This document shows, in pieces, positions 11,701 to 35,662 of a DNA stretch of 35,683 bases. This stretch comes from Oscillospiraceae bacterium (lineage in GTDB: Bacteria > Bacillota > Clostridia > Oscillospirales > Oscillospiraceae). The DNA is taken from positions 87,182 through 122,864 of the forward strand of contig JAGAMN010000009.1 in NCBI GenBank assembly GCA_017624715.1. The letters run 5' to 3'. The stretch's first letter is position 1; each line of letters starts with the position of its first letter. The notes beneath the pieces are model-generated. The model did not search any database, was not told the DNA's origin, and saw nothing but the letters and a program-made list of their open reading frames with translations. Made by a program: the position numbers and the translations under genes.

Positions 11701-12880
11701 TAGCTTCAGAGCCATAGGCAGAGCTGTAGCTGTTGGAAGCAGCGACAACAACGCTGATACCAGCAGCGCGGATTTTGTCGTAGACGCCGCTGAGGATCTC
11801 CTCATCCGTTTCGCGGCTAAAGCCACAGGCAGTACCCAGGGACATATTGATCACATCAACGCCCAAAACGACGCAGTCTTCCAATGCGGAAAGAATCCAG
11901 GATGCTCTTGCAGTATCCATAATGTCGGAGAAAATCTTCATGGAAACCAACTGGGCATTGGGAGCAACGCCTGTGATCACATCGTCCTTACCAACGATAA
12001 CACCGGAGACGTGGGTGCCGTGATTATTATGGGTAGAATAAACATCCGGGTCTTCATCGGCATAGTCAAAGCCGAAGGGAACCTTTTCGTTGATGTAAAC
12101 ATCATCCACTGACAGGCCCTCGAAGAGCTTGCTGGCGATGGTCTGGGACAAAACAGAAGCCACCTGAGAATAAGTTAAACCCAATTTCTGAGAGGAAAAG
12201 TTCTGAACAGAGAAGGCACTGTGGTTGGAGTCAAGGCCGGTGTCCAGGACGGCAACAACCATGCCGCTGCCGTCATAAGGAGACTTGGAGCTGTCGAAAA
12301 TGCCGGTTTCATAGACACTAACAGGGTTTTCCACCAGTTTGGTCTCGGCAACCTTGTACTCTTCACAGACAATAACGCCCTCACCCTTACCCAGGGACTT
12401 GCAGGTGGCATCGAAATCGCCTGCTTTGATGCGGATCTCAAAACCGCTGATCAGAGTATCATAATCCTCACCCAAAGTATAGGAAACACCTTTTTCATCC
12501 AGCAGGGACAGAATACGAGCTTTTTCCGTCCGGATGCGATTCTGGATCTCCAGAGATTCTGCGCTGTTCAGTGCAAAATCCTGGAAACTGCGTGTCCGGT
12601 CGGACTTGTCATAGGCGTCCATCACATTGGTCACATCCACCGTAACGATGACAGAAATAACCTGGTCATCCTTAACTGTAGAGGGCAGCTTGAACATGAC
12701 AGAATTATCCAAATAATCCGACAGATTCAGGGCCGGCAGGTCCGTATTCCTTTCTATGTAGGATGCATGATACTCCACGGCTTGTCCCACCGGGGATGCA
12801 AACATGCCCAACAGCAGTACCAGGCACAAAACGCCTGCGGTCACCGCAGAAATCAGTTTCACTTGAGATCGTTTTTTCAT
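5708..12880 (-). CDS. Giant secreted subtilisin-like (S8) protease with PA domain, Ig-like domains and BspA-type leucine-rich repeats
   Basis: A 2390-residue exported, membrane-anchored serine protease. Order of parts: signal peptide (about 1-35); I9-like propeptide (about 70-180); S8 catalytic domain with Asp213 (AVLDTG), His287 (NNHGTHVSG), oxyanion Asn383 (VVAASNS) and Ser607 (LSGTSMACP), all intact; an inserted PA domain (about 440-560, GKIVLVRRGDNTFEEKAL); Fn3-like/C5a-peptidase-like beta domains (about 690-1140); two Big2-like Ig domains (about 1150-1360, ending in ATIKV and ASVTI strands); about 27 BspA-type LRR units (about 1400-2170, YAFxxC cores); a helical linker (EQKALVTNYDKLVTAEQ); a membrane segment (about 2355-2374) and a charged KKK tail. 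It resembles lactocepin/C5a-peptidase enzymes but carries LRRs in place of a sortase anchor. It heads the operon that includes the peptide importer, from a promoter at 12941-12969. Extracellular protein digestion is the likely role; the substrate is unknown. Confidence 0.93.
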   Translation of the reverse strand: MKKRSQVKLISAVTAGVLCLVLLLGMFASPVGQAVEYHASYIERNTDLPALNLSDYLDNSVMFKLPSTVKDDQVISVIVTVDVTNVMDAYDKSDRTRSFQDFALNSAESLEIQNRIRTEKARILSLLDEKGVSYTLGEDYDTLISGFEIRIKAGDFDATCKSLGKGEGVIVCEEYKVAETKLVENPVSVYETGIFDSSKSPYDGSGMVVAVLDTGLDSNHSAFSVQNFSSQKLGLTYSQVASVLSQTIASKLFEGLSVDDVYINEKVPFGFDYADEDPDVYSTHNNHGTHVSGVIVGKDDVITGVAPNAQLVSMKIFSDIMDTARASWILSALEDCVVLGVDVINMSLGTACGFSRETDEEILSGVYDKIRAAGISVVVAASNSYSSAYGSEANGNLGLTTNPDTGTVGSPGTYEGVLSVGSINGVETPYIKYGDTIIYFDEANSGAAEELNFFDTLLGEEKSKEMEFVLIPGVGRSVDYTGLDVNGKIVLVRRGDNTFEEKALIAESQGAAGIIIYNNVSGEIKMNVGDAKIAVCSISQDDGEMLAAAASGKLSISRDQSSGPFISDFSSWGPTPSLNIKPEITAHGGNILSSVTGGGYDRLSGTSMACPNLAGVVVLLRQYVVENFPEIANDNVKVNALINQLMMSTADIALNMSGLPYAVRKQGAGLANLYNSLGTKAYIVTYDAKGNSMDKTKIELGDDPNKTGVYELKFTVVNFGDSALSYDLGAYVMTEGVSDTKTNSGKTTVTESGYILDGASIVVSAGGNNGNRITVNAGQSLDVNVTITLSDKDKNYLDTSFANGMYVEGFVTLDAVSGTDIDLNVPYLAYYGDWRKAPLFDLTYFDTNADELDDGINPEDKTMADAYATRPIGGVSADYVSYLGTYYFLQDPKDMVISANKDYIALSNQEGTIHSLRFVWAGLLRNAAKIEISITDDTTGEVVFETVDTDVRKSYGDGGSIYPANIEIEFDTMDYNLANNTEYTVRLVGYLDYGDGGLTTNENNVFEFPLTVDFEAPTVTDVEYYYEYDKTAKKNRLYAKAAIYDNHYAMAAQLGYVMMSTDENGEPMPELKTFEQYMTPIFSQRNGITYVTFELTDYIYELKENAMNGNCFVLSCYDYALNYATYEIGLPDEYVDFYFEGLKEGLTLSPNEVYSLEPLVYPDNAWSELLEFTSSRPSVARIVNNKIVAVSSGIATIKVRDPSTNKSITFRLTVLKEGDEGFRRFDKPVADVFTLKGFYTVKAFYMNTNEDKKLGDTGQTNFFEGNYSLEMYPSESVSLIYDLDAYFPNDTTVEFESSNENIVKIDKSGLVTAVAEGFASVTIRVLQNGQSTYYSETVAVEVKDPFVTNGATLSHYYGNGGLVTIPEKLHLTAVGSFSFSNFNYVEKTPEELAFDDAEAYKQWYIGENTITKVIIPEGVERIEAYAFANLTALEEVVLPSTLESIEYGAFFGCSNLQKITFSGENNLKIINQYAFEGCNLQGTIDLSSVCIISDYAFAGNQKLKGIKTGDSLLSIGQYTFAGCKGLSEVEITAAKVKYGAYAFTGCESLTSFKVNAAVLPEGMFYECKNMTAVTIGADVMEIGEFAFRDTQINSFIVLDGNKAFKTGEYTYILSADGQTLVAVSATASGAFTSANIGNANVTAIGDGAFSHNRKITSVNLPGVTKVGNYGFGSSDKLESVILGKLEQIGEYAFFETAITQLPEVSANTVIGKYAFAYTKLKSVTIPDGATVLEGVFAQCKALESVTIGNNVTIGDYAFNIDKDESYETKYYTDSNGKRFYYYAFSSALKNLTIGNDVTIGDSAFAGHASLQTVTLGSNAKIDRMAFYNCSALRTIDLSKALVIGEYAFSGDEYYICLDENMSIVAVSGEGTYLTTTHAPVLTVIDLSSAESIGQYAFALCDKLTQVTLGDKLSVIPTYAFASCEALKTIDLSKVTAIGDYAFMECAALTNISLASATEVGKYAFVNCGNLANLALNTAGTDIGEGAFAYCAKLANVENLSNARNIGSYAFAYSALTGADLSSAVSIGDMAFMKENLTPFTVKLGSNLMSLGDNPFAMCKVEPFYITEAVTFNGVDYVTRIYTFAISDSVQIIDGSLYCKVPNGLELITYAGVNGEDVQVAEGTVRITSHAFAGSDVKMVTLPYTVNAIGHKAFYRCNQLKTIVFTSYHAPILEEEFDSAYYQSLEHIPGSGDFGTYTDYNGKEVQINGMGLIPYFMWNATGEMYSNVFYGANFVDYVGYVGNKLMMVRPVNGQNYDSFIFDQYFDLRINGATGADDVTLAAIAAINKIPDRVSYEDKAIVEAARAAYNKIATTEQKALVTNYDKLVTAEQRIIALTPEAEAPAAPEVPAKPNVSWMAWTVMFLGVLGVAAALTLEYLREKKKNQNPVNEE

Positions 12881-13014: not shown

Positions 13015-13043
13015 TTTACAACCGCTGTTTTCCATGGTATACT
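13015..13043 (+). promoter_or_regulatory. Sigma-A type promoter for the membrane CXXC protein / NapH-TlpA operon
   Basis: TTTACA (13015-13020), a 17-bp spacer and TATACT (13038-13043), with a TG extended -10 element in front. The start codon at 13075 lies 31 bp downstream with GGAGG at 13063-13067. The position shows that translation must start at 13075 and not at an in-frame codon further upstream, which would precede the transcript start. Confidence 0.8.
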
Positions 13044-13074: not shown

Positions 13075-13833
13075 ATGACCAAAAAAACCGTAAAACGGAT
13101 CCGTTTGATCTATGGCATCGTTTTAAGTGTTTCAATCATTGTTGTGGCTTTGAGTCTGATGGCCTGCAGCGCCCATATTTATCTTACAGGCGATCATACA
13201 TATACCGCAGAAAAAGTGGCGGCATACTTTTCTCTTATCGCCGTACCAACTTATGTGTGTTTCGTCTTAATCCTAGGCGGTTTTTTGCTGCAGTTTCTGT
13301 TGCCGGAAGAAAGCAAAAAGAAAGCTTTTACCACACCTGTCCATATGCTTCTGGCCAGGTCAAAGCGCAAGACTCTGGCCGCCGGTCCTGTTCTGACAGC
13401 CGACATACAGGCCGAGGAAAAAAGAAGATCAAAGCTCAGATCGCTGACCATCAGTGTCCTTACCGTGGCTTTCATCAGCTTTCTACTGTACAGTTTGAAC
13501 CCATCGAATTTCACAGAGGATATCAACAGCTCTGTAATCCGCGGCTTTGCGGTGATGGCACTATGTTTGGTCGCACCTTTCGGTATTGCATTGGTAACGG
13601 TATACCGGAACAATGCCAGTATGCGAATTGAAGCGGAGCTGCGCAAGCAGGCGCAAATGGATCCTCCTGTCCCCCCTGCTCAGTCATGTAAGAATCTTCC
13701 CTCGCAGATCGCAAGGTTTTCCATTCTTTTGGTGGCCGTCAGTTTGGTGGTAATTGGTCTTATGGGCAATGGTACGAAAGATGTTTTGACCAAGGCCATC
13801 AACATCTGCACCGAGTGCATTGGATTGGGGTGA
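13075..13833 (+). CDS. Multi-pass membrane protein ending in a CXXC motif (CD1871A-like tail)
   Basis: A 252-residue membrane protein with about five hydrophobic segments (roughly 9-31, 49-76, 121-141, 155-178, 213-231) and a basic, Glu-rich cytoplasmic-looking loop (AEEKRRSKLR). Immediately after the last segment it ends in ICTECIGLG, with Cys235 and Cys238 forming CXXC. From memory, this ending matches the small CD1871A-family CXXC proteins of Clostridia, which sit next to 4Fe-4S/NapH proteins; here it appears appended to a larger membrane domain that I do not recognise. The stop lies 4 bp before the NapH-TlpA fusion, so the two are co-transcribed and probably functionally coupled. GGAGG sits 7 bp before the chosen ATG. 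A thiol-relay role at the membrane surface is inferred; the topology of the tail is not determined. Confidence 0.8.
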   Translation: MTKKTVKRIRLIYGIVLSVSIIVVALSLMACSAHIYLTGDHTYTAEKVAAYFSLIAVPTYVCFVLILGGFLLQFLLPEESKKKAFTTPVHMLLARSKRKTLAAGPVLTADIQAEEKRRSKLRSLTISVLTVAFISFLLYSLNPSNFTEDINSSVIRGFAVMALCLVAPFGIALVTVYRNNASMRIEAELRKQAQMDPPVPPAQSCKNLPSQIARFSILLVAVSLVVIGLMGNGTKDVLTKAINICTECIGLG

Positions 13834-13837
13834 TGGC

Positions 13838-15268
13838 ATGAGTAAGATAAAGAAATGGCTTCCCTCTAAGCGAAAGCTTATGCAACTGTATTTTGGTTTG
13901 CTGTTCAACGCAAATCTGAAAGGTTACCTGACCGGAAACATCTACAAAGGTGTCACCAAGAATATGTGTGTCCCCGGTATCAACTGCTATTCCTGCCCCG
14001 GTGCTGTGGGTGCCTGTCCCATTGGTTCACTGCAAGGCTCCTTCAGTTCTGCCAACAAAAGTACCATGTATTATGTGATTGGAATTTTGCTCATTTACTG
14101 TGTAATGTTCGGCAGAATGATCTGTGGTTGGTTGTGTCCTTTCGGTCTTGTGCAGGAATTGCTATACAAAATCAAAACACCTAAGGTCAAAAAGAATCCT
14201 GTAACCCGCATTCTTTCCTGGTTTAAGTATGTTGTTTTGATATTCTTCGTACTGATCGTTCCGATTATGTACGCTTTCCGAAGCACTCCCCTACCCGCCT
14301 TCTGCAAATACATTTGCCCGGCTGGCACATTAGAGGGCGGTCTGGCGCTACTGAGCAACAAGGCAAACGAGGGTTTCTTCTCTATGCTTGGCCCTCTGTT
14401 TACATGGAAATTCCTGCTGATGGTCAGCATTCTGGTTGGTGCAATCTTCATCTTCCGTTTGTTCTGCCGGTTCATTTGCCCGTTGGGTGCTCTATATGGC
14501 CTGTTTAACAAGCTGTCGTTCTTTGGTATTCAGGTAGATACATCCAAATGTATCAACTGTGGCATGTGCGCTAACAAGTGCAAGATGGATATCCGGTATC
14601 CCGGCGACCAGGAATGTATCAGCTGCGGCGAATGTGTGCCAGTATGCCCCACAAAAGCAATTCAATGGAAGCATTGGAAGACAGGCTGTGATGAACAACC
14701 CAATCGTAAGAAACGCACCATCGTACGTATTATCAGCGCTGTAGTCATGATTGCAATACTGGCCGGTGCTATTGGTTATTTCTGGGTGACCACACCAGAT
14801 CCTGTCAAGTTGAACGTAGGAAACTCCGTTGGCGATCTTTGTCCCGGTGCGGATCTGCAGATCATCGACAAGGAAGGTATCAAGACCGAAACAATGAATC
14901 CCACTAAGCGTGGTAAAATCACCATTATTAACTTCTGGGGTACATGGTGTAGCGGATGTATCGCAGAGCTCCCCTACTTTGATCAGATCGCAACGGAGTA
15001 CCAGGACACTGTAGCTGTGATTGCAGTCCACACAAGCAGCCTGGCTGAGACTGCTCCTGCCTACATAGCAGAGCATTATCCGAATAGCAATATGATCTTT
15101 GTGAAAGATAACGGTCAACTACCAAACGAGGAATACTACTTAGCCTTAGGTGGTCGTGGCGCATATCCTTACACGGTGGTTTTAGATGAAAACGGTGTTA
15201 TTACTGAGATCTTCTTCTCTTCCGTACATTATGACGATTTGAAGGCAGCTATTGAGAATATTGGATAA
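13838..15268 (+). CDS. NapH-like membrane 4Fe-4S protein fused to two ferredoxin clusters and a TlpA-type thioredoxin domain
   Basis: A 476-residue fusion predicted to move electrons across the membrane to an extracytoplasmic thiol. Residues 1-225 form a NapH/COG0348-like membrane domain with the family Cys-Pro motifs: C44...C50-x2-C53...C60, CGWLCP (96-101), CKYICP (156-161), CRFICP (210-215). Two 4Fe-4S sites follow, C238/C241/C244/C248 and C260/C263/C266/C270 (the second with the usual CP ending). After a basic stretch and a membrane segment (about 294-316), residues 325-476 are a TlpA/ResA-like thioredoxin domain with active site WCSGC (Cys371, Cys374) and the expected cis-Pro region GAYPYTVV. 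The two halves thus lie on opposite sides of the membrane. The start is ATG 13838, preceded by GGGGTGAT; a TTG 18 bp upstream is a less likely alternative. The electron donor and final acceptor are unknown. Confidence 0.92.
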   Translation: MSKIKKWLPSKRKLMQLYFGLLFNANLKGYLTGNIYKGVTKNMCVPGINCYSCPGAVGACPIGSLQGSFSSANKSTMYYVIGILLIYCVMFGRMICGWLCPFGLVQELLYKIKTPKVKKNPVTRILSWFKYVVLIFFVLIVPIMYAFRSTPLPAFCKYICPAGTLEGGLALLSNKANEGFFSMLGPLFTWKFLLMVSILVGAIFIFRLFCRFICPLGALYGLFNKLSFFGIQVDTSKCINCGMCANKCKMDIRYPGDQECISCGECVPVCPTKAIQWKHWKTGCDEQPNRKKRTIVRIISAVVMIAILAGAIGYFWVTTPDPVKLNVGNSVGDLCPGADLQIIDKEGIKTETMNPTKRGKITIINFWGTWCSGCIAELPYFDQIATEYQDTVAVIAVHTSSLAETAPAYIAEHYPNSNMIFVKDNGQLPNEEYYLALGGRGAYPYTVVLDENGVITEIFFSSVHYDDLKAAIENIG

Positions 15269-15272
15269 ACAA

Positions 15273-15302
15273 AGAGCGGATCGTCAAACAACGTTCCGCT
15301 CT
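15273..15302 (+). terminator. Hairpin terminator after the NapH-TlpA operon
   Basis: Arms AGAGCGGA (15273-15280) and TCCGCTCT (15295-15302) form an 8-bp perfect stem 4 nt after the stop codon. The T tract is weak (CTCTTCA), so termination may be partial and assisted by the adjacent hairpin at 15313-15340. Confidence 0.55.
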
Positions 15303-15312
15303 TCACATAGGA

Positions 15313-15340
15313 AAGGGGCACGCCAAATGGCGTGCCCCTT
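15313..15340. terminator. Bidirectional terminator between convergent operons
   Basis: A perfect 12-bp stem, AAGGGGCACGCC and GGCGTGCCCCTT, closes a 4-nt loop. It lies 14 bp past the stop of the minus-strand wall-anchored protein and past the plus-strand operon, so it probably ends transcription from both sides. Confidence 0.75.
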
Positions 15341-15354
15341 AAATTATGTTGGAA

Positions 15355-17727
15355 TTAGTCTTCCTTCTTATTGGCAACCAGAACCACAGCACCGGTCAGT
15401 GCGATGATAGCGGCAGCCATAGCAACCAGGATACCGCTGTCGCCGGTATCAGGGTTGGACTCGATAATGCTGATGGAGTATGCAGAAGCACCGCTGCCGG
15501 AGTTGGCAACAACGATGGCGTTGACGGGAGTGCCGTCCAGCTTCACAAAGTACTCACCGTTCACAGCCTTCAGTTCCTTGCCATTGACAGTAACAGACAG
15601 GCCAGAACCCTTGACAACGATGTACTTGCCGTTGTAAGAGCCGTTAACAATGTAGTAGGTGGTGGAGCCTGCCTCAGCAGAAGCGTTAATAGCGCCGCTC
15701 ATAGCATTCAGAACAACAGGGTTCGTCTCAGAACCCACAGGGTACTCGATAACAGCAATGTAGCTGGCATCCTGATTGCCCTTGTTCTCAACAACGATCA
15801 TGTTGGCAGGAACACCGTTCAGCTCTACTGCAAAGATGCCATTGTCGCCTGCGACGGCACCTGCACGGGTGCTGACAGCAGTGTTGGCATCACCAACAAC
15901 GGTCAGAACCTGGCCGTTCAGCATGCTGCTGACAGCGATGTAAACTTTCTCACCGGCGGGGACATCGATGCCGCCCAACTCAGAGGGATCGTTCACAATA
16001 ATGGGGTTGTTCTCGGAACCGGCGGGGAAAGCAATGCCGGCAATGTAGCTGGCGTCCTTATCGCCCTTGTTCTCAACAACGATCATGTTGGAGGGGACAC
16101 CGGTCAGCTCAACAACAAACATACCGTTATTGGCAGCAACAGGAGTAGTACGGTTATAAACAACAGTATTGGCATCGCCAGCAATGGTCAGGACCTGACC
16201 GTTCAGCATGCTGCTGATGGCAATGTAAACCTTCTCACCGGCGGGGACATCAATGCCGCCCAGCTCGGAGGGATCGTTCACAATAATGGGGTTGTTCATA
16301 GAGCCCAGAGGATCGATAACTGCTTCGACATCAATGTAAGCACCATAGCCGTAATCCTCATACTCATAGATGGGCAGGGACTGAACCTTAATGATGACCT
16401 TATCACCGGCCTTGACATCGAATACAACTTCGGTACCGGAAATGACTTCCACACCGTTGACAAAAACAGTTACCTGGGGCTTGACATCCTCATAACCGAT
16501 AACCTCAAAGGTCTCTTCGTCGTAAATAGCTGCCTGGTACAGAGCCTCCTCAGTCCACTCAGCGCCGGTGACAGTCATGGTGACCTTACCAGTCTCGGTA
16601 GCGACCCAGGAGTAATGCATGCTGTCGTCAGTGCCGCCGGCGATCTCAGCTTCGATCTTGTCCAGCTTTTCGATCTTAATGGGGTTCTCGTCATAGCCAA
16701 GAGGCTCACTGACAGTAACTGTGTACTTAACGTCGGTGGAGCTATTGCTGCCGATACCGACAACGACACTCTCAGCGCCGCCGTAAACATAGACCTTAGC
16801 AGTCAGAACATCATCGTCACCGTCATCGATCCACTCAACATAGCAATCGCCGTAGCCATTGACATAGGCGTGTGCATCATAAATGGTCAGAATGGCGCCG
16901 CTGACATCAGTCAACTTGTAGAAAACTTCGCTGTTGGGATTCAGGACAGCCTCAAAGGTATATGCCTTGTCCTGATCGGGTACATCAAAGGGGGTGTACT
17001 GGGACTCGCCTTCCTTGAAGGGCTCGAAGGAAAGATCCAGAGTCACGGTGTCAAAGGTCTCGCCTCTGACGACGATCTTCACAGTTTCGCCACTGGCAAC
17101 ACCGATCTTGGCAGGTTCGATATTGTCGGGATACTGAGATGCCCAGGAGGAATCGGTATTCATTTCGATGACATCGTAACTACCGGTAACACCATTGATG
17201 GTCAGGTTACCGCCGGCACCGCTGTTGGTCCAGGTCATGAAGTACTCAAAACCATATTGGCCCTGAATGCCGGTAACGGTGATGGGATTAGAAATGTCGG
17301 TTAGAACAGCAGGCTTCATTTCAGAGCCTTCCACGGGCTCGACAAGTTCGCAGGTGCCGCCCACGATCTCATAACCCCAGGAAGAACCCAGGCCAATCAG
17401 AATGTCACTGCCGTAACCTTCCAGGCCGTAGGAAGCAGCCATAAAGTTCTCTGCCGCGGGGAATTCAAAGCCCATCATGGGGTGAATGATGTAAATAGCA
17501 GGGCCGCTCATAGGGGCACTGAAGTTCAGCACCTTGCCGCTCCATGCTGCAGGCAGCAGGAACCACTTGATTTCGCCCGAAGGTACGTTAACAGATGCCA
17601 GCTCGGAAATATCTGTAACGACGATGGGATCTTCCTTCGTGCCGGCTGCAGGCTCACTGGCCAGAGCAGCAGTTGCCAGGCACAGTACCAAAGACAGTAC
17701 CATAACGAGGCTGATTAACTTTTTCAT
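15355..17727 (-). CDS. Wall-anchored repeat surface protein with NPDTG sorting signal
   Basis: A 790-residue secreted protein. Residues 1-23 are a signal peptide (ATAALAS). The C-terminus has NPDTG (758-762), a hydrophobic segment (about 766-784) and the tail NKKED, i.e. an LPXTG-like cell-wall sorting signal with Asn in place of Leu. The body consists of acidic beta-sandwich units. The last three (about 476-571, 572-666, 667-757) are tandem repeats of about 95 residues that start with NNPIIVNDPSELGG or similar and end in MIVVENKG. Earlier units (KEDPIVVTDIS, YDENPIKIEKLD) look like diverged relatives. The very acidic, Gly/Val/Asn-rich composition suits a wall or S-layer-like protein. AGGGAGGT precedes the ATG. 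It is convergent with the NapH-TlpA operon. No catalytic motif was seen; the ligand is unknown. Confidence 0.87.
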   Translation of the reverse strand: MKKLISLVMVLSLVLCLATAALASEPAAGTKEDPIVVTDISELASVNVPSGEIKWFLLPAAWSGKVLNFSAPMSGPAIYIIHPMMGFEFPAAENFMAASYGLEGYGSDILIGLGSSWGYEIVGGTCELVEPVEGSEMKPAVLTDISNPITVTGIQGQYGFEYFMTWTNSGAGGNLTINGVTGSYDVIEMNTDSSWASQYPDNIEPAKIGVASGETVKIVVRGETFDTVTLDLSFEPFKEGESQYTPFDVPDQDKAYTFEAVLNPNSEVFYKLTDVSGAILTIYDAHAYVNGYGDCYVEWIDDGDDDVLTAKVYVYGGAESVVVGIGSNSSTDVKYTVTVSEPLGYDENPIKIEKLDKIEAEIAGGTDDSMHYSWVATETGKVTMTVTGAEWTEEALYQAAIYDEETFEVIGYEDVKPQVTVFVNGVEVISGTEVVFDVKAGDKVIIKVQSLPIYEYEDYGYGAYIDVEAVIDPLGSMNNPIIVNDPSELGGIDVPAGEKVYIAISSMLNGQVLTIAGDANTVVYNRTTPVAANNGMFVVELTGVPSNMIVVENKGDKDASYIAGIAFPAGSENNPIIVNDPSELGGIDVPAGEKVYIAVSSMLNGQVLTVVGDANTAVSTRAGAVAGDNGIFAVELNGVPANMIVVENKGNQDASYIAVIEYPVGSETNPVVLNAMSGAINASAEAGSTTYYIVNGSYNGKYIVVKGSGLSVTVNGKELKAVNGEYFVKLDGTPVNAIVVANSGSGASAYSISIIESNPDTGDSGILVAMAAAIIALTGAVVLVANKKED
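15457..16302 (-). repeat. Coding tandem repeats, about 285-bp period, in the NPDTG surface protein
   Basis: Three consecutive 95-codon units; the first two are very similar at the DNA level (for example the segments at about 15945-16020 and 16230-16305 differ at few sites), while the third is more diverged. Such identity points to recent duplication and to possible copy-number change by recombination. Confidence 0.85.
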
Positions 17728-17763
17728 AAATTTACCTCCCTAATATGTTTGCATTTTCATGCT

Positions 17764-17796
17764 AAAAAACCCTAGATTATAAATGAAGGGATTTTT
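17764..17796 (-). terminator. Terminator of the small CMPC lipoprotein gene
   Basis: On the minus strand AAAAATCCCT and AGGGTTTTTT form an A/T-flanked stem with one bulged base, ending in a T run, just after the stop at 17810. It overlaps the -10 element of the next promoter (17776-17804). Confidence 0.6.
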
Positions 17797-17804
17797 ACTG
17801 TTCA
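17776..17804 (-). promoter_or_regulatory. Candidate promoter for the NPDTG surface protein
   Basis: On the minus strand TGAACA (17799-17804, four of six consensus matches) and TATAAT (17776-17781, perfect) are separated by 17 bp, about 50 bp upstream of the ATG at 17727. The -10 box lies inside the loop of the preceding gene's terminator. Confidence 0.6.
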
Positions 17805-17809
17805 GGCCG

Positions 17810-18226
17810 TCAAGCGGCTTTCAGGACGATGGTCATCTCATAAGAACCGGCTTCAAAGTAAAACTCAGTCTTATCCCCTGCCAGGGTATAACCGGCCGGC
17901 ATCATGGTAAAGGAGACCTTATAATTAGCAGGAGTCAGCTTCATGGTTGCATTACCCTGAGCATCGAGCATACAGGGCATGCAGGAATCCAAACAGAACT
18001 GGATCATACCACCGGTGACAGGTTTTCCGGCCTCATCCACAACATGAACAGTGTATGTGACCTTACCGTCATTGGGTTGGCTGGCTTCGGAAGAAGGAAC
18101 AGTCGGCTCACTGGAGGGTGCGCTGCTCTCGCCGCCATTATCCACCGGAGGCTGGGAACAGCCAAAGGCCATCAGGCACAGGCATAGGATCAGTGCCATT
18201 GCCAAAAAACGTCGAATCATTTTCAT
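17810..18226 (-). CDS. Small lipoprotein with carboxypeptidase-regulatory-like domain and a CMPC motif
   Basis: A 138-residue lipoprotein: lipobox AFGC (lipidated Cys23), a Ser/Pro/Glu spacer (about 28-52), then a single beta-sandwich of the carboxypeptidase-regulatory/SpaA-like type (VTYTVHVVDEAGKPVTGG...ANYKVSFTMMPAGYTLAG). The same kind of domain begins the three larger exported proteins upstream. Unlike them it carries three closely spaced cysteines, Cys78, Cys82 and Cys85, the last two forming CMPC. This could be a disulfide, a metal site or a redox partner of the neighbouring thioredoxin-domain proteins; all of these are inferred. ATG 18226 was chosen because GTGAG lies 9 bp upstream; an ATG at 18235 is also in frame. 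It has its own promoter at 18258-18286 and a terminator at 17764-17796. Confidence 0.82.
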   Translation of the reverse strand: MKMIRRFLAMALILCLCLMAFGCSQPPVDNGGESSAPSSEPTVPSSEASQPNDGKVTYTVHVVDEAGKPVTGGMIQFCLDSCMPCMLDAQGNATMKLTPANYKVSFTMMPAGYTLAGDKTEFYFEAGSYEMTIVLKAA

Positions 18227-18257
18227 TAATATCATCTCACTCGTATAAATATCCATC

Positions 18258-18286
18258 ATTGTAGCACGTTTGTCCGCGGTGCGCAA
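18258..18286 (-). promoter_or_regulatory. Promoter for the small CMPC lipoprotein
   Basis: On the minus strand TTGCGC (18281-18286) and TACAAT (18258-18263) are separated by 17 bp, with a TG extended -10. It lies in the 95-bp gap after the 930-residue protein, where no terminator hairpin is evident, so read-through from upstream could add to its activity. Confidence 0.7.
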
Positions 18287-18321
18287 TACTAAATTATGAA
18301 AATTCTTACATTTTTTCACAA

Positions 18322-21114
18322 TTAACCGTAGTAACAGGCAAACATCCATGCATATTCGGGATTCAGATTGGGTTCGGATTCGATCAGATACCCATTCATC
18401 TCCGCGTTCCACCAGGACTGGTCCTGACCATATTCCTTCAGAATGTGCATCAGATCCGCGGTCAACGGGTAGCGTCCATTAGAATCGATGCATCCAACAT
18501 AGGCTGAGAACAGATTTTGGTAATCTTCTTTGACAACCGATCCATCCGCTTTGTCAACGTAGGCACGAACACCCAGGCCCTGGGTCAGAATGTCCTTTAG
18601 GGCGGACATATAAGTGGTATCATCAAAGTCCAGATAGATGATCGGGCCATTGGCGCTCATGTGGTAGTAACCATCGCTGCCCAGCACAAGGTTATAGGTT
18701 CCGGTAGCAGCACTGATGTCAACACGGGTGGCTCCAGAGGAGGATGCAGGGAAGCTCTTGGAGGGCGTGTGACTGCCGGTATAGGCAACCCAAGGCTGAT
18801 CGGTAATGTCCAAAACAGGCTCTCCAATGCGGGTAATGGACAGTGTGCCGGAGTTGGTGCCGGCAGGTGCAACAATGCCCAAAATAAAGGAGGAATTCAG
18901 ATGACCTTCCTTAATGGACAAGACGAAGCTATTGTTGGCATAATCAATACCTGCGCTGTGTGTCAGATCCTGAATATACTGCATATTGTTACCCCAGTAG
19001 CTCAGGGTTCCGCCTGTGCAGGTGAACCGGTACAGACCCGTTCTTGTGGGGGTAAACAGGAAGTAGCTCACCTCGCCGGGAGTCAAAATTACGGGCGTAT
19101 TGCCCTCACCTACATTGAAGGCAAGACCCACATAAAGCATGGTATATCCATTGGGAATAGATGTTTCCAATGCCACCTCCAAATTGGGGGAGCGCTTGGA
19201 TACTGTCTTTAAACCACTGGGGACTGCATATCCGGCAGGAGCGGTGATATTGACGGTGTATGTACCCTCCGGCAAGCGCAGGGTGGCGACACCGGTACTG
19301 TCGGTCTGGGTACTTCCCTGCCCCTTCGTACCGGTCAAGGAAACGGTCACGCCGGAAAGGCGCTCGTTGTACGGATCCGTAATCGTGACGGTAAAGGTAA
19401 TCTTGCCGTCATCCGGAGGTGTGGTAGGACCTTGTGTAGGACCTTGTGTGGGCTCTTGGGTCGGTTCCTCAGTAGGCTCCCACGTGGGTTCTTGCGTGGG
19501 TTTTTCCGTGGGTTCTACGCTGGGCTCCACAGAAGGATCGGTCACAGGGGGCTGGGAGGGCTGTGTTGTACCCGGAGTTGGCTCAAACGCCACCAAAGAT
19601 TCAAAATCTGCAGCGGGATAATCGTTTCCGGAGGCATCTTGGATGGACGCAATGGAAAGCTGGACACGCTGGCCGGGTTCCACGGAAATGGTCAATGTAT
19701 CTGCTCCGGTTTCAGCCATGTTGATATAGGTAAAGGAATCCAGATTATAAAGCACGTAATCATAGGTCACACCATTGGTAACAGAAAGATTCTTTACCGT
19801 CAGCGTTCCGCTTTGGGTGGCTTGGTAAATGTAGTAAATGCCCTGCTCGTTTCCGGCATCTACATGGGTAGACAGATTTCCGGTTGTAAGATTATGAGGA
19901 TTTGCCTGAGAACCAGGGATAAAGGACAGCTTCACAGTGTAGGTTTGCTCCTGAGCAGCGGTATTACCGAACACTAAAACTGCGGGCTGGAACGTATCCG
20001 GGGACTGAACCGGAAAGCGAATCACACCATTTTCGGGCAGATAGGTATGTTCCTTATAGAGGACGGTTGCATTGGTATTTTCCAGCGTCAGATAAATATC
20101 GAAAACCCGGTAAAGGTTACAGTAGATCTTACCGCCGGCAGGAACTGTGACGGTAAACTCCGTCACACCCATGATCTCTAAAGGGTTTGTCACACTTCCC
20201 TGCTGACTGGTCAGCTTTAAGATATCGTCTACATACTCCACTACGGTCTGGGTATAACCGGGGGCGCTGTAGTAAGCAAAGACGGACTCAAAGGTTTCTG
20301 CACTGGGCAGAGTACCTACATGAATTAGGCAGACTGTGCCGAAACGGTCGATGACGATGGTCGTAGGATAGTATTCGACACCCAGAATACCATCGGTATT
20401 GGTGTTGACCCATTTTGTATCGACGGCTGCCATGGGGAATGTCAATCCCATTTCAGACTTATACTGTGCGATATCTTCATTGCTGTCAAAGGGGCTCAAA
20501 GCCAGGAATGCAATATCGTTACTGTACTTTTCATAAGCTTGCTGAATATAGGGGAATTCCGCCTTGCAAGGACCGCAATCGGCAAACCAAAAGTTCAGCA
20601 CAACCGCGGACTTGGTTTCCAGTAATTCAGAAATCTTATGGGTGATACCATCAGAATCAGTAATGGTCATTTCGCACATAGCATCGCCCAGACCGATTTT
20701 GGTGTTCTCATCAGGGTCAACCATATCAGGTGCAAGAATGATCTGCGTATCGGTACCGGTCAGCACATAGCAGGTTTCCTGCTTATAGCCTGCAGGAACC
20801 TTGTCCAGCACAACAGCGTAATTACCGGGCAATGCAGTAAAGGTAATATTGCCGTTAACGTCGGTGCGCAGGAAGTTATGCAGGTCCTGCAAGCTGCTGT
20901 CCGTGTAAATGTAGACATCTACATTCGCCAGAGGACTGCCGCCATTGGTCTTGACAGTAACCGTATGGGTCACGGGAACCGGCTCTGTAGGTTGCTGCGG
21001 ATCACCATTACCGCCGCCGACGACAAGTATAATCGCCAGTGTTGCAACGACCAATACCGCAATTGCCACAAACAGCCAAAGGCGATTCTTATACATAAAT
21101 TCAGAAAATTTCAT
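18322..21114 (-). CDS. Membrane-anchored exported protein: TlpA-like thioredoxin (CGPC), P/T/E linker and GYYH-type C-terminal domain
   Basis: A 930-residue exported protein with an N-terminal membrane anchor (about 13-33, no lipobox). Order: a carboxypeptidase-regulatory-like beta domain (about 48-128, ending NYAVVLDKVPAGY); a TlpA/ResA-like thioredoxin domain (about 138-290) with CGPC (Cys180, Cys183) and cis-Pro250 (EYYPTTIVIDRFG); beta domains (about 300-510); a Pro/Thr/Glu-rich linker (about 512-570, built from EPTQEPT-like units); a second regulatory-like beta domain (about 570-650); a beta region; and an unrecognised C-terminal domain with GSDGYYH (812-818), NGP (822-824), PLT (883-885) and AWMFACYYG at the end. 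From 570 on it matches the whole 405-residue neighbour in layout, including IGEPVLDITDQPWVAY. It is third in a three-gene operon, with a 15-bp gap. Extracytoplasmic thiol redox work is inferred from the thioredoxin site; the substrate is unknown. Confidence 0.85.
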   Translation of the reverse strand: MKFSEFMYKNRLWLFVAIAVLVVATLAIILVVGGGNGDPQQPTEPVPVTHTVTVKTNGGSPLANVDVYIYTDSSLQDLHNFLRTDVNGNITFTALPGNYAVVLDKVPAGYKQETCYVLTGTDTQIILAPDMVDPDENTKIGLGDAMCEMTITDSDGITHKISELLETKSAVVLNFWFADCGPCKAEFPYIQQAYEKYSNDIAFLALSPFDSNEDIAQYKSEMGLTFPMAAVDTKWVNTNTDGILGVEYYPTTIVIDRFGTVCLIHVGTLPSAETFESVFAYYSAPGYTQTVVEYVDDILKLTSQQGSVTNPLEIMGVTEFTVTVPAGGKIYCNLYRVFDIYLTLENTNATVLYKEHTYLPENGVIRFPVQSPDTFQPAVLVFGNTAAQEQTYTVKLSFIPGSQANPHNLTTGNLSTHVDAGNEQGIYYIYQATQSGTLTVKNLSVTNGVTYDYVLYNLDSFTYINMAETGADTLTISVEPGQRVQLSIASIQDASGNDYPAADFESLVAFEPTPGTTQPSQPPVTDPSVEPSVEPTEKPTQEPTWEPTEEPTQEPTQGPTQGPTTPPDDGKITFTVTITDPYNERLSGVTVSLTGTKGQGSTQTDSTGVATLRLPEGTYTVNITAPAGYAVPSGLKTVSKRSPNLEVALETSIPNGYTMLYVGLAFNVGEGNTPVILTPGEVSYFLFTPTRTGLYRFTCTGGTLSYWGNNMQYIQDLTHSAGIDYANNSFVLSIKEGHLNSSFILGIVAPAGTNSGTLSITRIGEPVLDITDQPWVAYTGSHTPSKSFPASSSGATRVDISAATGTYNLVLGSDGYYHMSANGPIIYLDFDDTTYMSALKDILTQGLGVRAYVDKADGSVVKEDYQNLFSAYVGCIDSNGRYPLTADLMHILKEYGQDQSWWNAEMNGYLIESEPNLNPEYAWMFACYYG
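19405..19581 (-). repeat. Low-complexity Pro/Thr/Glu linker-coding repeat
   Basis: Short degenerate repeats encoding EPTQEPT/EPTEEPT/QGPT units in the 930-residue protein, about 59 residues in all. It separates the thioredoxin half from the GYYH half and has the look of a wall-spanning spacer whose length may vary between strains. Confidence 0.85.
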
Positions 21115-21129
21115 AGTATCCGCTTCCTT

Positions 21130-22347
21130 TTACTGGGCGATGTAGGCGCAGGCAAAGAGCCATGCTACATCCGGATTGATGGTTACATCAGGAGTGCCTT
21201 GGGCATCTACGAAGATATAGCCCTTGCCGGCAGCATCCCACCAGCCGTAGTAATCGCCACGCTGCTGGATGATATACTTAAGGTCTTCGGTCAAGGGGTA
21301 GACACCGGCATTTTCGTCCATAACCTCAAAGTAGGACAGCAGGCATTCGTTATAGCTTTCCTTTTTTAGGAAATTACCCTGACCGTCATAAAAAATCTTA
21401 CCGACCCGGGAAGAATCAACCATTTTCTGGAAGGAATCCAGATACTTACTGGAAACACCCAGATATACAACCACCAGTGGGCCGTTGCTGTCGTTCAGGT
21501 GATAGAAGCCGTCGCTGCCCAAGACCAGTTCATAATTCTTGGCGGTCAGATCAAAATCCGTCAGCTTCGAGCCGTCCGGCAAGATATACTGGCTTAGCTC
21601 TACAGTAGGTTTATAGGCAGTCCAAGGTTCGTCAGAGATGTCCCATTGGGGATCACCGATACGCTCAATCAGCAAAGTACAATTGGTATCGGCGGTTGCC
21701 TTCAGGCCAAAGACATATACGCCAGCAAGGGCGGATTCCTTGATGGAAATGGTGACGGAGTTATTCACTACTTCCAAAGCACTGCTTTCCTGGACAAAGT
21801 GGGGCATGCCGTAATAGCCCAACTCAGCGACATCCGCAGGGGCGGAAATCTTATAGGTGCCGGCCTTCTCGGCAGAGAATAGGAAATAATTCATGCCGGG
21901 CTTCAAGGTTACCCAGGTGGCACCGCTTTTGACGTTATATGCCTGATAGGTACCGAAATTGGTAACCAAATCCTGAGGCATACCAACAGGCATCTGCTTC
22001 AACGAAATCTGCAGTTGGGTCTTTTCTGCACTCAAGGTCAACTCCGCCTTGTCGTAATAATAAGCTGCATCGCTGTCGGTGAACATCAATTCAACAGAAT
22101 AGTCACCTCTGGGCAGATTCTTAACCGCTGCGCCGGCAGCACCGACTGGCTGCATGGCCACCTGCTGTCCGTTCTGCAGAAACTGGACAATAACACCGGT
22201 GGTAAATACCTCGCCATTGGAATCGGTAACGGTTACGCTGTAATCAGCATTGGGCGACAGCGTCTCCTGAGGTTCGGAAGATGCGCAGCCAGCGATCAGG
22301 TTGCCGAAACACAGCAATGCACAAACAAAAGCAATTGTCTTTTTCAT
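21130..22347 (-). CDS. Lipoprotein with regulatory-like beta domain and GYYH-type C-terminal domain
   Basis: A 405-residue lipoprotein with lipobox IAGC (lipidated Cys21). A carboxypeptidase-regulatory-like beta domain (about 34-117, SVTVTDSNGEVFTTG... PRGDYSVEL) is followed by a pre-peptidase-like beta region (about 140-230, TWVTLKPGMNYFLFSAEKAGTYKI), the link IGDPQWDISDEPWTAY, and the C-terminal domain with GSDGFYH (277-283), NGP (288-290), PLTEDLKYI (351-359) and WLFACAY. It has no thioredoxin domain and no CXXC. Its whole layout is repeated in the second half of the 930-residue protein encoded just downstream, so the two are paralogues by partial duplication or fusion. GAGGT lies upstream of the ATG; gaps to both neighbours are 15 bp. 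It is probably a binding partner or accessory of the thioredoxin-domain proteins; its function is not known. Confidence 0.83.
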   Translation of the reverse strand: MKKTIAFVCALLCFGNLIAGCASSEPQETLSPNADYSVTVTDSNGEVFTTGVIVQFLQNGQQVAMQPVGAAGAAVKNLPRGDYSVELMFTDSDAAYYYDKAELTLSAEKTQLQISLKQMPVGMPQDLVTNFGTYQAYNVKSGATWVTLKPGMNYFLFSAEKAGTYKISAPADVAELGYYGMPHFVQESSALEVVNNSVTISIKESALAGVYVFGLKATADTNCTLLIERIGDPQWDISDEPWTAYKPTVELSQYILPDGSKLTDFDLTAKNYELVLGSDGFYHLNDSNGPLVVVYLGVSSKYLDSFQKMVDSSRVGKIFYDGQGNFLKKESYNECLLSYFEVMDENAGVYPLTEDLKYIIQQRGDYYGWWDAAGKGYIFVDAQGTPDVTINPDVAWLFACAYIAQ

Positions 22348-22362
22348 ATAGGATACCTCACA

Positions 22363-25149
22363 TTAGCCTGCTGCACTCAGAGTATCGTAATAATAGCACA
22401 GCTTGGGCCAGGAACATTCTACATTTTCGAAGGTATACTTTTCCATCAGCAGCTGGAGGATATCTGCCAACTCCGCGGTGACGGGCACACAGCCGATCAG
22501 CTCAGGTTTACCGCTGGTGATGATGTTCTTTAAGTATTTCTTGACCGTTTCGGTATAATTCTGTCCGCGGCCGTGATAAGTACCGGACAGGACATCATCT
22601 ACCTGGTATTCCTGATAATTGGCATCGTAGTCCTCACCCCAAACCGTTTTCAGCTCTGCGAGGGTGGCTTCCACATTATTATTGTTCTTTTGCAGATAGC
22701 CGAGGATGTACATATCATTCTCGTTCTTGCTGAAATCAAAGGCACCTTTATCAATCATGCCCTTAACACCGTTATTGGTAGCGATGGGGGTATCAAAGAG
22801 GGTCAGGCCGTAGAAGTCAGCATAGACAATGCTGCCAAGCTTACCGTTGCCCAGATCTTCGTGGTAATAGCCATCCTTGCCCAGGGCAACCTTAATACCA
22901 CCGCTGATGGTGTAGTACATATTCTCGCCTTCGGCATCGGTATCGTAGGTGAAGTAGCCGGGATAAGCCAGGCGGAAAAGGTCATAGGTCTTGCCAACAT
23001 ATTCTACATCATAGTAGATATAGCCAGTAGCATAGACATCCCAGAAGGCCATATTGATGAAGTAGGTCTTTCCAGCCTCCATGTAATAGAGCATGGAGAC
23101 ATTGATGGTATCCTCATAGAGGCGCTCATCGTACTCATAGGTGTAGATGACGTTGCCGTTCTCGTCGTGGATCCAGCCCTCGATACCCTGCGCATAATCA
23201 CTCTTAGAGGTGAAACGATAGACACCGGACTTGGTTGGAACAAACTTAGCCAAAGTACCGCGGGGAATGATGGGACGATCGTAATAGAAGTAGTTGGAGG
23301 CCACATCTTTGCCCAAGGTAGCAGTAAACGCAGAGAACGGAGCCAGACCGGCAATGGGATCCTGGAGTTGTGCGCCGTCGGTACCGTAAACCTGGAAGTA
23401 CTTACAAATCTTCAACCATTCGTTTTCGTTGTTATCAAAACCGTACTGGGCAGCGACTTCCTTCAGCTGCTCCGCCAGAGAAGATGTGACGGTACAAACA
23501 CCAAACAAGGAAGAATTGGATGCCAGAGAGAAATTATCCACCATGACATCGTAATAGGGCTTGCCGTTGACCTGCATATTGTTGTCGTAAACGAGACTGA
23601 AAACAGGCTGCTCTTCGTTGAACTGGGTGTAACCCATCAGATCAGCCAGCAGCAGAGGTCCGTTGGCCGTGCCAACATGATAGTAGCCGTCCTTGGAATT
23701 GAAGACCACATCAACATAATCGTAGGTGAAGCCATCGTCCTTGGTGGTAGCAGCAAAGCGAGGGATATAGGTAGGAACATCGATATCCTTTGCGTCAATA
23801 ACACGCATATTCTTGACATAAACGGTATCTTCGCCTTCGCTGCCGGATTCATCCTTCAGATAGCACAGAGCGACCTCGTATTCGCCATCCTCCAGAGCGA
23901 CCCAGGGATAGCAGGATTTCCAGCCCGTCTGATTCGTTCCGGAAATAGAATAGATATCTTCGCCGTCAACAATGATATACAGAACATCATTCAGGCTTTC
24001 AGAAGAAGCCCAGTAGTCAAAGCCAATCGCCTGGCCAGCCTTCAGCGAAACATCGGCATAGATAATGGCATAGGAATCATCAATGCTCTGGTTAGATGCC
24101 TTCAGGCAGGTTTCGCCGCCCTTTTCTGTCAGCACAAAGGGCCAGCAGAATTCAGCGCTCTCCCCTTCTTCGGGTCGGTAGGTAACGGTGATATCACCCT
24201 TGTTAATGGCAGTGCCGATCTCCTCGTTGGAGGGCATGGTCTGGGTGGGCTTTACTGCGGTGACCAATTCATCCAGGCTTGTGCAAAGCTTCTGCTTATA
24301 GTCATCGCCGGTGAAGTAATCAAAGATACTGGTAAAGGGACGCAGGCTGGTAATACCGCCGGACTCAATCAGGCACACAACGCCGTAGCGGTCAATCACT
24401 ACGGAAGTGGGATAACCGGAAACGCCAAATGCATTGGCATAACCGGCGTTACAGCTTGCCATGGGGAAAGACAGGTGATTGCTCTCCTGGAAGCTCTTGA
24501 TGGCAGGATCCGCCTCAAAGGGATTCAGCGCCACAATCTCGATCTTGTCCTTGTACATCTGGTAGGCTTCCTCCATGTAGGGGAACTCCTCCAAACACCA
24601 GGTACAGGTGGTATACCAGAAATTCAGCATGACCATTTCCTTTTCCTTCAGCAGCTCAGAAAGGGTCACATTGGTGCCGTCATGGGTGGTGACAGTAAAG
24701 TCATACATCACACTGCCCAGGGTCAGACTGGCACTGGACAGGCTATCGTCCTTGATGAGGGAGGAATTCAGGCGAATGGCAGCGGTGGTGCCGTTAAAGG
24801 CATAGCTTTCTGCAACCTCATAACCCTTGGGCGCACCGGACAGTACGACAGCATAATTGCTCTTCTCAGGCATTTCAAAGGTAATATTGCCGTTAGCATC
24901 GGTTTGGCCAAACTTTTCCAGGTTGGTCAGATTCTCGGAATAGATGTAAACATCCAATCCAGCCATCGGCATGCCACCGGTGGTCTGCACATTGACCAGG
25001 TAGCTCTTAATGCCGCCGGGTGTTTCTGTGGTCGGTTGGGTGTTCTCACCGGGGTCCTCGGTGTTGTCGCAACCGATGAGCATCATTGCCATCGAAAGCA
25101 TCATAGAAACCGCCAGAACCATTGCCAAAATCTTTTTGCTCTTTTTCAT
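22363..25149 (-). CDS. Lipoprotein with TlpA-like thioredoxin (CTWC) and two GYYH-type domains
   Basis: A 928-residue lipoprotein with lipobox LIGC (lipidated Cys27). Order: carboxypeptidase-regulatory-like domain (about 48-128, ending NYAVVLSGAPKGYEV); TlpA-like thioredoxin domain (about 140-290) with CTWC (Cys182, Cys185) and cis-Pro247 (SGYPTSVVIDRYG); a jelly-roll-like beta domain (about 305-452); a first GYYH domain (KDGYYH 486-491, NGP 496-498); a pre-peptidase-like beta domain (about 615-720); and a second, diverged GYYH domain (KDGYYH 758-763, NGK in place of NGP, VTAELADIL near 890). The CTWC dipeptide differs from the CGPC of its paralogue, suggesting a different redox potential or partner. 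ATG 25149 was chosen because AGGAGGAG lies directly upstream and a lipoprotein signal follows; an upstream in-frame ATG at 25188 would add 13 residues before it. It is first in the three-gene operon, from the promoter at 25211-25239. Confidence 0.87.
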   Translation of the reverse strand: MKKSKKILAMVLAVSMMLSMAMMLIGCDNTEDPGENTQPTTETPGGIKSYLVNVQTTGGMPMAGLDVYIYSENLTNLEKFGQTDANGNITFEMPEKSNYAVVLSGAPKGYEVAESYAFNGTTAAIRLNSSLIKDDSLSSASLTLGSVMYDFTVTTHDGTNVTLSELLKEKEMVMLNFWYTTCTWCLEEFPYMEEAYQMYKDKIEIVALNPFEADPAIKSFQESNHLSFPMASCNAGYANAFGVSGYPTSVVIDRYGVVCLIESGGITSLRPFTSIFDYFTGDDYKQKLCTSLDELVTAVKPTQTMPSNEEIGTAINKGDITVTYRPEEGESAEFCWPFVLTEKGGETCLKASNQSIDDSYAIIYADVSLKAGQAIGFDYWASSESLNDVLYIIVDGEDIYSISGTNQTGWKSCYPWVALEDGEYEVALCYLKDESGSEGEDTVYVKNMRVIDAKDIDVPTYIPRFAATTKDDGFTYDYVDVVFNSKDGYYHVGTANGPLLLADLMGYTQFNEEQPVFSLVYDNNMQVNGKPYYDVMVDNFSLASNSSLFGVCTVTSSLAEQLKEVAAQYGFDNNENEWLKICKYFQVYGTDGAQLQDPIAGLAPFSAFTATLGKDVASNYFYYDRPIIPRGTLAKFVPTKSGVYRFTSKSDYAQGIEGWIHDENGNVIYTYEYDERLYEDTINVSMLYYMEAGKTYFINMAFWDVYATGYIYYDVEYVGKTYDLFRLAYPGYFTYDTDAEGENMYYTISGGIKVALGKDGYYHEDLGNGKLGSIVYADFYGLTLFDTPIATNNGVKGMIDKGAFDFSKNENDMYILGYLQKNNNNVEATLAELKTVWGEDYDANYQEYQVDDVLSGTYHGRGQNYTETVKKYLKNIITSGKPELIGCVPVTAELADILQLLMEKYTFENVECSWPKLCYYYDTLSAAG

Positions 25150-25210
25150 GATACTCCTCCTGTTATTCCTCGGGAAATAATTGCCCATAATACCTTATTT
25201 TACATATAAC

Positions 25211-29895: not shown

Positions 29896-29986
29896 GGAGA
29901 TGTACCCAAGTGGCTGAAGGGTGCGGATTCGAAATCCGCTAGGCGCCGCAAGGCGTGCGGGGGTTCAAATCCCTCCATCTCCGCCA
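29896..29986 (+). tRNA. tRNA-Ser (anticodon CGA)
   Basis: A 91-nt gene including an encoded CCA. The acceptor arms GGAGATG and CATCTCC pair perfectly with discriminator G. The anticodon stem GCGGA/TCCGC closes loop TTCGAAA, giving CGA, which reads the serine codon UCG. A long variable arm (GGCGCC...GGCGTGC) is the class II feature expected for serine. The T arm has GGTTCAAATCCC. The gene has its own promoter and a terminator at 29994-30015. Its T arm and 3' end are echoed three times downstream in the tandem element. Confidence 0.97.
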
Positions 29987-35545: not shown

Positions 35546-35662
35546 TGTTCGCGTTACCTATTTTCACGGCCAGTCACCCGGCAACTATCGTCGGCGTATA
35601 TGTGCTTAACTTCTGTGTTCGGGATGGGAACAGGTGGACCCACATAACAATCAACACGAACT
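35546..35662 (-). rRNA. rrf: 5S ribosomal RNA
   Basis: On the minus strand the conserved 5S core CCATCCCGAACACAGAAGTT is present, followed by TTAAGC and GATAGT. Helix I is closed by GTTCGTGTT at the 5' end and AACGCGAAC at the 3' end (one G-U). The length of about 117 nt is normal; ends are good to a few bases. It is the last gene of an rRNA operon that extends beyond the right edge; the remaining 21 bases are the 23S-5S spacer. Confidence 0.95.

Follow-up and report, generated by a model that had tools for sequence, protein, structure and literature searches.

A 35,683-nucleotide stretch of an Oscillospiraceae metagenome-assembled genome, here called the window (G000:C52:87182-122864; genome G000, 2.27 Mb, 86% complete), carries a redox island of the cell surface that is real, conserved and patchily distributed. 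Its body consists of two convergent gene sets: a plus-strand pair for a membrane protein with a CXXC tail and a NapH-like iron-sulfur protein fused to a TlpA domain, and a minus-strand series for exported proteins of 941, 405, 930, 136 and 790 residues (aa). The order, strands and sizes of these genes match those of a preliminary description of the locus, in which the 941-aa frame had been read from a later ATG as 928 residues. The motifs, order and fusion reported there stand, while the promoters and one of the proposed thioredoxin partners do not.

The plus-strand pair opens with the gene for the membrane protein (252 aa; 13075..13833), which has five predicted transmembrane (TM) helices and represents a long form of the CD1871A family (NF040920), residues 216-252 scoring 38.9 bits where the cut-off is 32. 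Four TM helices are predicted to precede the CD1871A domain, and the positive-inside rule places the C-terminal CXXC outside the cytoplasm. The motif is present in all 56 clustered rows of this protein family and lies at the C-terminal extremity in 55 of them. Four bases past the end of this gene begins the fusion (476 aa; 13838..15268), a chain of three Fer4_5 stretches, two Fer4 stretches and an extra TM helix, followed by an outward-facing Redoxin/TlpA domain similar to ResA. Fer4_5 (1.2e-18), Fer4 (1.2e-10), Redoxin (2.7e-11) and AhpC-TSA all exceed their Pfam gathering scores. Based on Fer4_5 (67.2 bits), Fer4 (41.2 bits) and the TM helices found by a hydropathy script, the protein belongs to the NapH-like class in the wide sense; its score for the NapH/MauN family (TIGR02163) is 63.8 bits, below the cut-off of 213. 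Four outer cysteines, the ferredoxin cysteines and the CXXC are invariant in 12 aligned fusions. Among the alignments made, A4 draws on 15 of the 20 rows in A2, and A3 on 41 of 55 listed rows. An FMN-binding domain is not listed in eight proteins scanned with Pfam (seven of the island and AsnA), a scan in which ApbE was not searched for. Both membrane proteins are much as they had been read before.

The two largest proteins of the minus-strand set had likewise been recognized as exported proteins with thioredoxin sites, and both contain TlpA domains in Pfam. The 941-aa lipoprotein (22363..25188) combines a SpaA-like module, a ResA-fold domain with the motif CTWC and beta-rich modules, and the 930-aa protein (18322..21114) has a TlpA domain with the motif CGPC (AhpC-TSA, 7.4e-14), a SpaA-like module and a C-terminal module. 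All 21 clustered homologues of the former retain the CXXC, as do 6 of the 7 of the latter. When the 941-aa sequence is compared with the whole genome at E<=0.001, it matches, besides itself, only the fusion and the 930-aa protein, all three inside the window. The family model for ResA proper (NF002854, cut-off 170 bits) is reached by neither of these proteins nor by the fusion (84.3 bits for the 941-aa protein, 64.8 for the 930-aa protein, 56.7 for the fusion); in a fold search, the predicted structure of the 941-aa thioredoxin domain has the ResA fold and falls into the ResA/TlpA-type class. A second module, from a model of residues 483-941, is predicted to adopt the collagenase collagen-binding/PPC fold; this search effectively covered only about residues 611-734, and the first searches with the whole model showed the thioredoxin domain only. 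Additional cysteines of the 941-aa protein are also kept among its homologues (C595 in 21/21, C900 in 15/21, C931 in 18/21).

Three further genes complete the minus-strand set. Between the two large genes lies that of a 405-aa lipoprotein (21130..22347), which is 33% identical to residues 574-929 of the 930-aa protein and so has its C-terminal module in common. The 136-aa lipoprotein (17810..18220), referred to here as LP136, shows no thioredoxin match in Pfam and a likeness to SpaA/Big_1 that stays below cut-off. Its CMPC motif, which had earlier suggested a thioredoxin-type partner, is missing from the 16 other clustered homologues, so that of 17 rows only that of the window has it; with neither motif conservation nor a thioredoxin match, this assignment was rejected. 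What is conserved is a C-x3-5-C pair, present in 16 of 17 LP136 rows, whose second cysteine is, judged by spacing and flanking letters, the first of the CMPC. The last gene (15355..17727) encodes a 790-aa exported protein ending in an NPDTG sequence that resembles a cell-wall anchor (Gram_pos_anchor 19 bits, just under the cut-off of 20).

Beyond the CXXC gene, and divergent from it, is the gene for an exported subtilase of 2390 aa (5708..12880, minus strand), with PA and Fn3 domains and leucine-rich repeats (LRR) of the BspA type (Peptidase_S8 7.9e-42, LRR_5 9.2e-119). It is followed on the same strand by genes for a 442-aa lipoprotein (4303..5631), which clusters with 18 other fetched loci, an 853-aa solute-binding protein of a peptide-type ATP-binding cassette (ABC) transporter (1710..4271; SBP_bac_5 1.3e-26) and an ABC permease (695..1690; BPD_transp_1 4.8e-34). 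A terminator-like hairpin with a 12-bp stem and nine G-C pairs (15313..15340, plus strand) separates the convergent sets; such hairpins overall occur at chance level (12 in the region against 11.2 +/- 3.5). The promoters that had been described as seen are sites of the right appearance near both operon starts (13015-13043 on the plus strand and 25239-25211 on the minus strand), in a region where their number, 15, is that of shuffled sequence (16.2 +/- 3.9). Gaps of 101 and 82 bases precede the last two minus-strand genes, so that the five genes need not share one transcript. Elsewhere in the window are genes for tRNA-Ser(CGA) (29896-29986, plus strand) and 5S rRNA (35546-35661, minus strand).

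The distribution of these genes was compared in an order set of 297 genomes, all at least 90% complete except that of the window, and in a relatives set of 99 genomes. The complete fusion is found in 7 of the 297 order genomes (G000, G079, G239, G263, G264, G274, G286). At E<=1e-20 the 941-aa protein has homologues in eight, namely the identical seven (all at <=1.1e-99) and G342, in which a weaker match (6e-29) adjoins a split NapH gene; the overlap has a hypergeometric probability of 2.7e-14 before relatedness is considered. In the relatives set, 11 of the 13 genomes with a 941-aa homologue at the same threshold carry the fusion, and 11 of the 12 with the fusion carry the homologue. The possibility raised in the preliminary description, that homologues of the exported proteins would usually be found without the fusion, is therefore not what is seen (7 of 8 and 11 of 13 have it). 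In five of the seven fusion genomes of the order set, moreover, the 941-aa gene lies on the same contig within 17 kb of the fusion. Tree-aware pairs within the genus give the same picture: fusion and 941-aa protein change the same way in 5.9 of 7 pairs and in opposite ways in none (median p 0.031), or the same way in 4.9 of 7 when only full-length homologues are counted (p 0.0625). The underlying rpoB tree has 40 rows, on which the presence of the fusion requires seven changes; it represents 39 of 61 genomes of the genus, with G032 entered twice, both rows labelled as fusion, and leaves out G016, G025 and G035 (3 of the 11 fusion genomes of the genus), G007 and five rows from outside the genus. 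Two rpoB matches each are present in G000 (C3, C44) and G032 (C37, C16), so these assemblies may be mixed and absences in both need care. The pairing of the fusion with the 941-aa protein is not due to chance.

Similar associations can be made out in more distant relatives. From a GTDB profile scan the best 80 of 593 loci were kept, which thus sample the closest relatives; these 80 overlap with the relatives set. By their titles nearly all are of Clostridia type, and many come from goat, sheep and deer gut or rumen and from samples named Lapin. NapH and TlpA are within one frame in 79 of the 80 loci, L143 having two adjacent frames, and they are preceded on the same strand by a CXXC gene in 78 loci under a relaxed gap rule and in 71 under a strict one. 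The three components known from a CxxC/4Fe-4S/TlpA operon are accordingly found together both in the window and in nearly all of the GTDB loci. Further genes recur around them: a separate TlpA-domain gene in 32 loci, an LP136-like domain in 42 and a subtilase at E<1e-100 in 11. The separate TlpA genes number 34 (13 convergent, 13 co-directional, 8 divergent), and a simple pattern finds a lipobox-like signal in 27 of them, one of which (150 aa, L106) is probably false. With this distant 150-aa gene set aside, 12 of the 80 loci have a TlpA gene that points the same way as the operon and lies no more than 185 bp upstream of it; a lipobox-like signal is present in nine. Gene and operon are separated by -4 to 11 bp in seven loci (L100, L105, L106, L107, L108, L114, L145), and six of these genes have a lipobox-like start. 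The coupling of TlpA lipoprotein genes to the CXXC-fusion pair is thus operon-like in relatives and, together with the co-occurrence of fusion and 941-aa protein, makes for a link that exceeds the mere neighbourhood on which it had first been based. At L110 and L111, an LP136 gene directly precedes the CXXC-fusion operon in the same orientation, and LP136 may therefore be a core exported partner.

The components also exist in unfused form. In eight of nine fetched loci of such split relatives, a gene for a CD1871A-type protein of 45-60 aa abuts an unfused NapH-like gene, and a TlpA-type match is nearby in eight of nine, L042 being the exception. In Peptoclostridium acidaminophilum the trio is annotated by NCBI, with a major facilitator superfamily (MFS) gene between TlpA and CD1871A. 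Such fusion in one lineage of genes that elsewhere lie side by side speaks for a joint function.

Conservation extends to the wider island. The 941-405-930-136 order, followed by another large gene, recurs in G011 (L049), G028 (L052) and G032 (L054); the fifth gene is only weakly alike (24% identity over part, in G028). Close subtilase orthologues (at least 55% identity) are present in 8 of the 297 order genomes, comprising the seven fusion genomes, in all of which the subtilase is 1.0-1.5 kb from the fusion (the match in G286 spans 336 residues only), and G221. The 442-aa lipoprotein goes with the protease as well: a clustered subtilase is present in 14 of its 18 co-clustered loci, and also in L057, of which L058 is the continuation. 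This adjacent, co-travelling subtilase was absent from the preliminary description, as were the CD1871A identity of the CXXC protein and the undetected CcdA discussed below. Between the families of G000 and G079 (rpoB 66% identical), the fusion is 62%, the subtilase 63% and the 941-aa protein 56% identical, and within the genus (rpoB 89-92% identical to that of G000) the corresponding values are 49-69, 65-71 and 52-60%. The divergence of island proteins from one family to the other is therefore little greater than that inside the genus. This pattern suggests that the island has been exchanged, though saturated, fast-evolving genes would also produce it. In G026 and G056 a more divergent fusion (49 and 54%) accompanies an ordinary subtilase (70%). 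Mobile carriage was looked for and set aside: the NapH-like part was matched at 43-46% identity in 1 of 72,556 plasmid and 2 of 50,697 phage records, none of which covers 80% of the query. The phage records, MT836098.1 and MT836032.1 (43-45%), are unannotated and from human faeces, and could represent phage cargo or bacterial contigs.

In other bacteria, exported thioredoxin-like proteins of this kind receive electrons from CcdA, detected here as a DsbD_TM match over cut-off. The 86% complete window genome has no DsbD_TM match of any strength, and none over cut-off is found in any fusion genome of the relatives set (0/12), the order set (0/7) or the GTDB loci (0/80, with four matches below cut-off), sets that overlap; overall, 37 of the 99 relatives and 101 of the 297 order genomes have one. 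Before relatedness is considered, the exclusion has P 0.002 in the relatives set, and when the 7 fused and 35 split NapH-like genomes of the order set are taken together, DsbD_TM is found in 4 of 42, compared with 97 of the 255 remaining genomes (p 1.7e-4). In genus g20 the fusion occurs without CcdA in G079, and CcdA without the fusion in G184. These counts suggest that CcdA has been replaced by the NapH-like donor. An analogous design is seen in single-chain CcdA-TlpA fusions of about 421 aa in two relatives (G099:C22:29155-30306 and G170:C151). Like the protein of the window, they unite a membrane conduit and TlpA in one chain; unlike it, they use CcdA in place of NapH, and their genomes have no 941-aa homologue at E<=1e-20.

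Taken as a whole, the island probably encodes a system that carries reducing power across the membrane to the cell surface, and we give its core electron path a probability of roughly 0.6. The NapH-like part would take electrons from a cytoplasmic or membrane donor through its iron-sulfur clusters, and these electrons would pass to the outer fused TlpA domain, perhaps with the CXXC tail of the CD1871A-type protein as a relay. The TlpA domain may then reduce the CXXC of both the 941- and the 930-aa protein, so that the fusion would do for them what CcdA does for ResA and Etrx proteins elsewhere. The link from fusion to exported thioredoxins, as first proposed, is here strengthened by co-occurrence in 7 of 297 genomes; that electrons flow along it, and in this direction, we infer. 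The surface thioredoxin proteins could in turn reduce disulfides outside the cell. Since genes for a protease and for peptide-type uptake are next door, the leading reading of this last step is the reduction of disulfides in protein food: the likeliest targets would be cross-linked food or host proteins, which the 2390-aa subtilase might then cut and whose pieces the peptide ABC system might import. A role in protein foraging is plausible, if tentative. Conceivably, the whole set forms a self-contained surface apparatus of hindgut Clostridia that reduces, cuts and imports, in which a NapH-like donor displacing CcdA, protein-binding thioredoxins, an LRR-subtilase and a peptide importer move between families as one island, a proposal that we regard as possible rather than probable.

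Several observations weigh against this interpretation. G008 (68% complete) has the fusion and no 941-aa homologue, and G033 and G039 (81 and 82% complete) have the homologue and no fusion. A separate TlpA gene is not seen in 48 of the 80 GTDB loci, many of whose stretches end early. At G221:C41, in a 93% complete genome, a subtilase orthologue (55%) occurs with neither fusion nor 941-aa homologue. Distances of fusion and subtilase correlate weakly (r 0.17, 21 pairs), in comparison with 0.72 for subtilase and rpoB, and co-inheritance of the two genes as judged by distance correlation was set aside. In the case of CcdA, the exclusion has P 0.053 in the order set even before relatedness, and the tree-aware comparison is not significant in either of two runs (0 pairs the same way, 1.5 opposite and 5.5 without difference of 7; and 0, 2.2 and 4.8). 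Around one Lachnospiraceae fusion genome, CcdA is found in 27 of 99 genomes, nearly all far down the list; if that list is ordered by kinship, close kin mostly do without CcdA anyway. The exclusion is thus complete in counts and without power on the tree, so that replacement is suggested rather than proven, and its use as proof was dropped. Finally, the cytoplasmic electron donor is itself postulated, and the mechanism as a whole is derived from computation.

The main rival is that the system maintains the island's own surface proteins, reducing or rearranging wrong disulfides of the cysteine-bearing subtilase and binding proteins in the manner of DsbC/DsbD and serving no external substrate. 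Such care for its own proteins would fit the adjacency of subtilase and fusion in all seven fusion genomes of the order set, and it would fit the cysteines themselves: subtilase Cys 336, 352, 536 and 610, which lie towards the N-terminus in the catalytic domain or close to it, are kept in 16-17 of 17 homologues, and C595, C900 and C931 of the 941-aa protein are mostly kept among 21. Many subtilase cysteines, however, are located in the LRR part, and cysteine positions are usual in LRR regions. The 941-aa protein, moreover, has large extra modules, one with a predicted binding-domain fold, which is more than a folding catalyst needs, and LP136-type and approximately 500-aa TlpA partners accompany fusions where no subtilase is seen in flanks of up to 10 kb. 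On balance this explanation appears rather unlikely.

Two other end uses can be considered in relation to known electron-transfer chains. NapH-like proteins are thought to supply extracytosolic reductases elsewhere, according to the portions of PMC8238504 drawn on here, and the surface thioredoxins might correspondingly hand electrons to an extracellular acceptor, disposing of respiratory or overflow electrons as in flavinylated NapH-like systems. The fusion, however, has no FMN-binding domain listed in Pfam, a Pfam scan of 12 window proteins shows no terminal reductase domain, and the 941-aa partner is modelled as a ResA-fold protein, so we consider such disposal improbable. Still less probable is repair of the pneumococcal type, in which surface thioredoxins feed methionine sulfoxide reductase: SelR/MsrB is detected in 10 of 14 control genomes but in none of nine island genomes, only two of which are at least 90% complete, in a search that did not extend to MsrA. 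This negative result argues against methionine sulfoxide repair, which was down-weighted as an end use. Reduction of external proteins by the exported thioredoxins continues to be the preferred reading of the last step.

The core trio is already in print as a three-gene CxxC/4Fe-4S/TlpA operon of gut Clostridia (PMC12637426, a preprint), where its function is presented as untested, its abundance is tied to side effects of immunotherapy and the 4Fe-4S partner contributes the domains that serve as marker proteins. The three building blocks are shared; here the CXXC gene is followed by NapH and TlpA in one chain, whereas the operon of the preprint has three genes and the sections considered mention neither CcdA, nor a set of surface partners, nor a protease. 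In Streptococcus pneumoniae a chain of CcdA and Etrx1/Etrx2 feeds MsrAB2, and this system, like CcdA-ResA of Bacillus, resembles what is proposed for the island in that a membrane donor supplies exported ResA-fold proteins (PMC3914529, as far as the excerpts used extend). In the island, by contrast, the putative donor is a NapH-like iron-sulfur protein, CcdA and MsrB are not found, and the partners are multi-module proteins of 930-941 aa; it corresponds neither to CcdA-Etrx/ResA, the DsbD donor being undetected, nor to CcdA-Etrx-MsrAB2, SelR being absent from nine genomes of which seven are less than 90% complete. Flavinylated NapH-like systems also employ a NapH-like membrane protein as electron conduit, but their outer carrier, as described in the same portions of PMC8238504, is an FMN-binding domain, where the island has a thioredoxin domain. 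Reduction-assisted proteolysis is known from keratin breakdown by a protease and a disulfide reductase, which is alike in the principle of reducing first and cutting second; the parts of PMC8260994 relied on show no shared genes and describe no membrane-fed surface system. A literature search, to which subscription journals were mostly inaccessible, returned PMC12637426 as the one account of the core, and no description of the NapH-TlpA fusion, its company of giant surface thioredoxins or the subtilase island.

CcdA over cut-off is missing from 196 of the 297 order genomes, which raises the question of how such cells place reducing power outside. One solution for cells that lack CcdA would be a NapH-like donor connected to exported thioredoxins. 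Such a donor would also suggest, in biochemical terms, what the CxxC/4Fe-4S/TlpA operon tied to immunotherapy side effects (PMC12637426, in the sections cited above) might do. If the link to proteolysis is true, the island would offer a testable molecular explanation of how commensals open up cross-linked protein, for example that of mucus or of digestion-resistant food.

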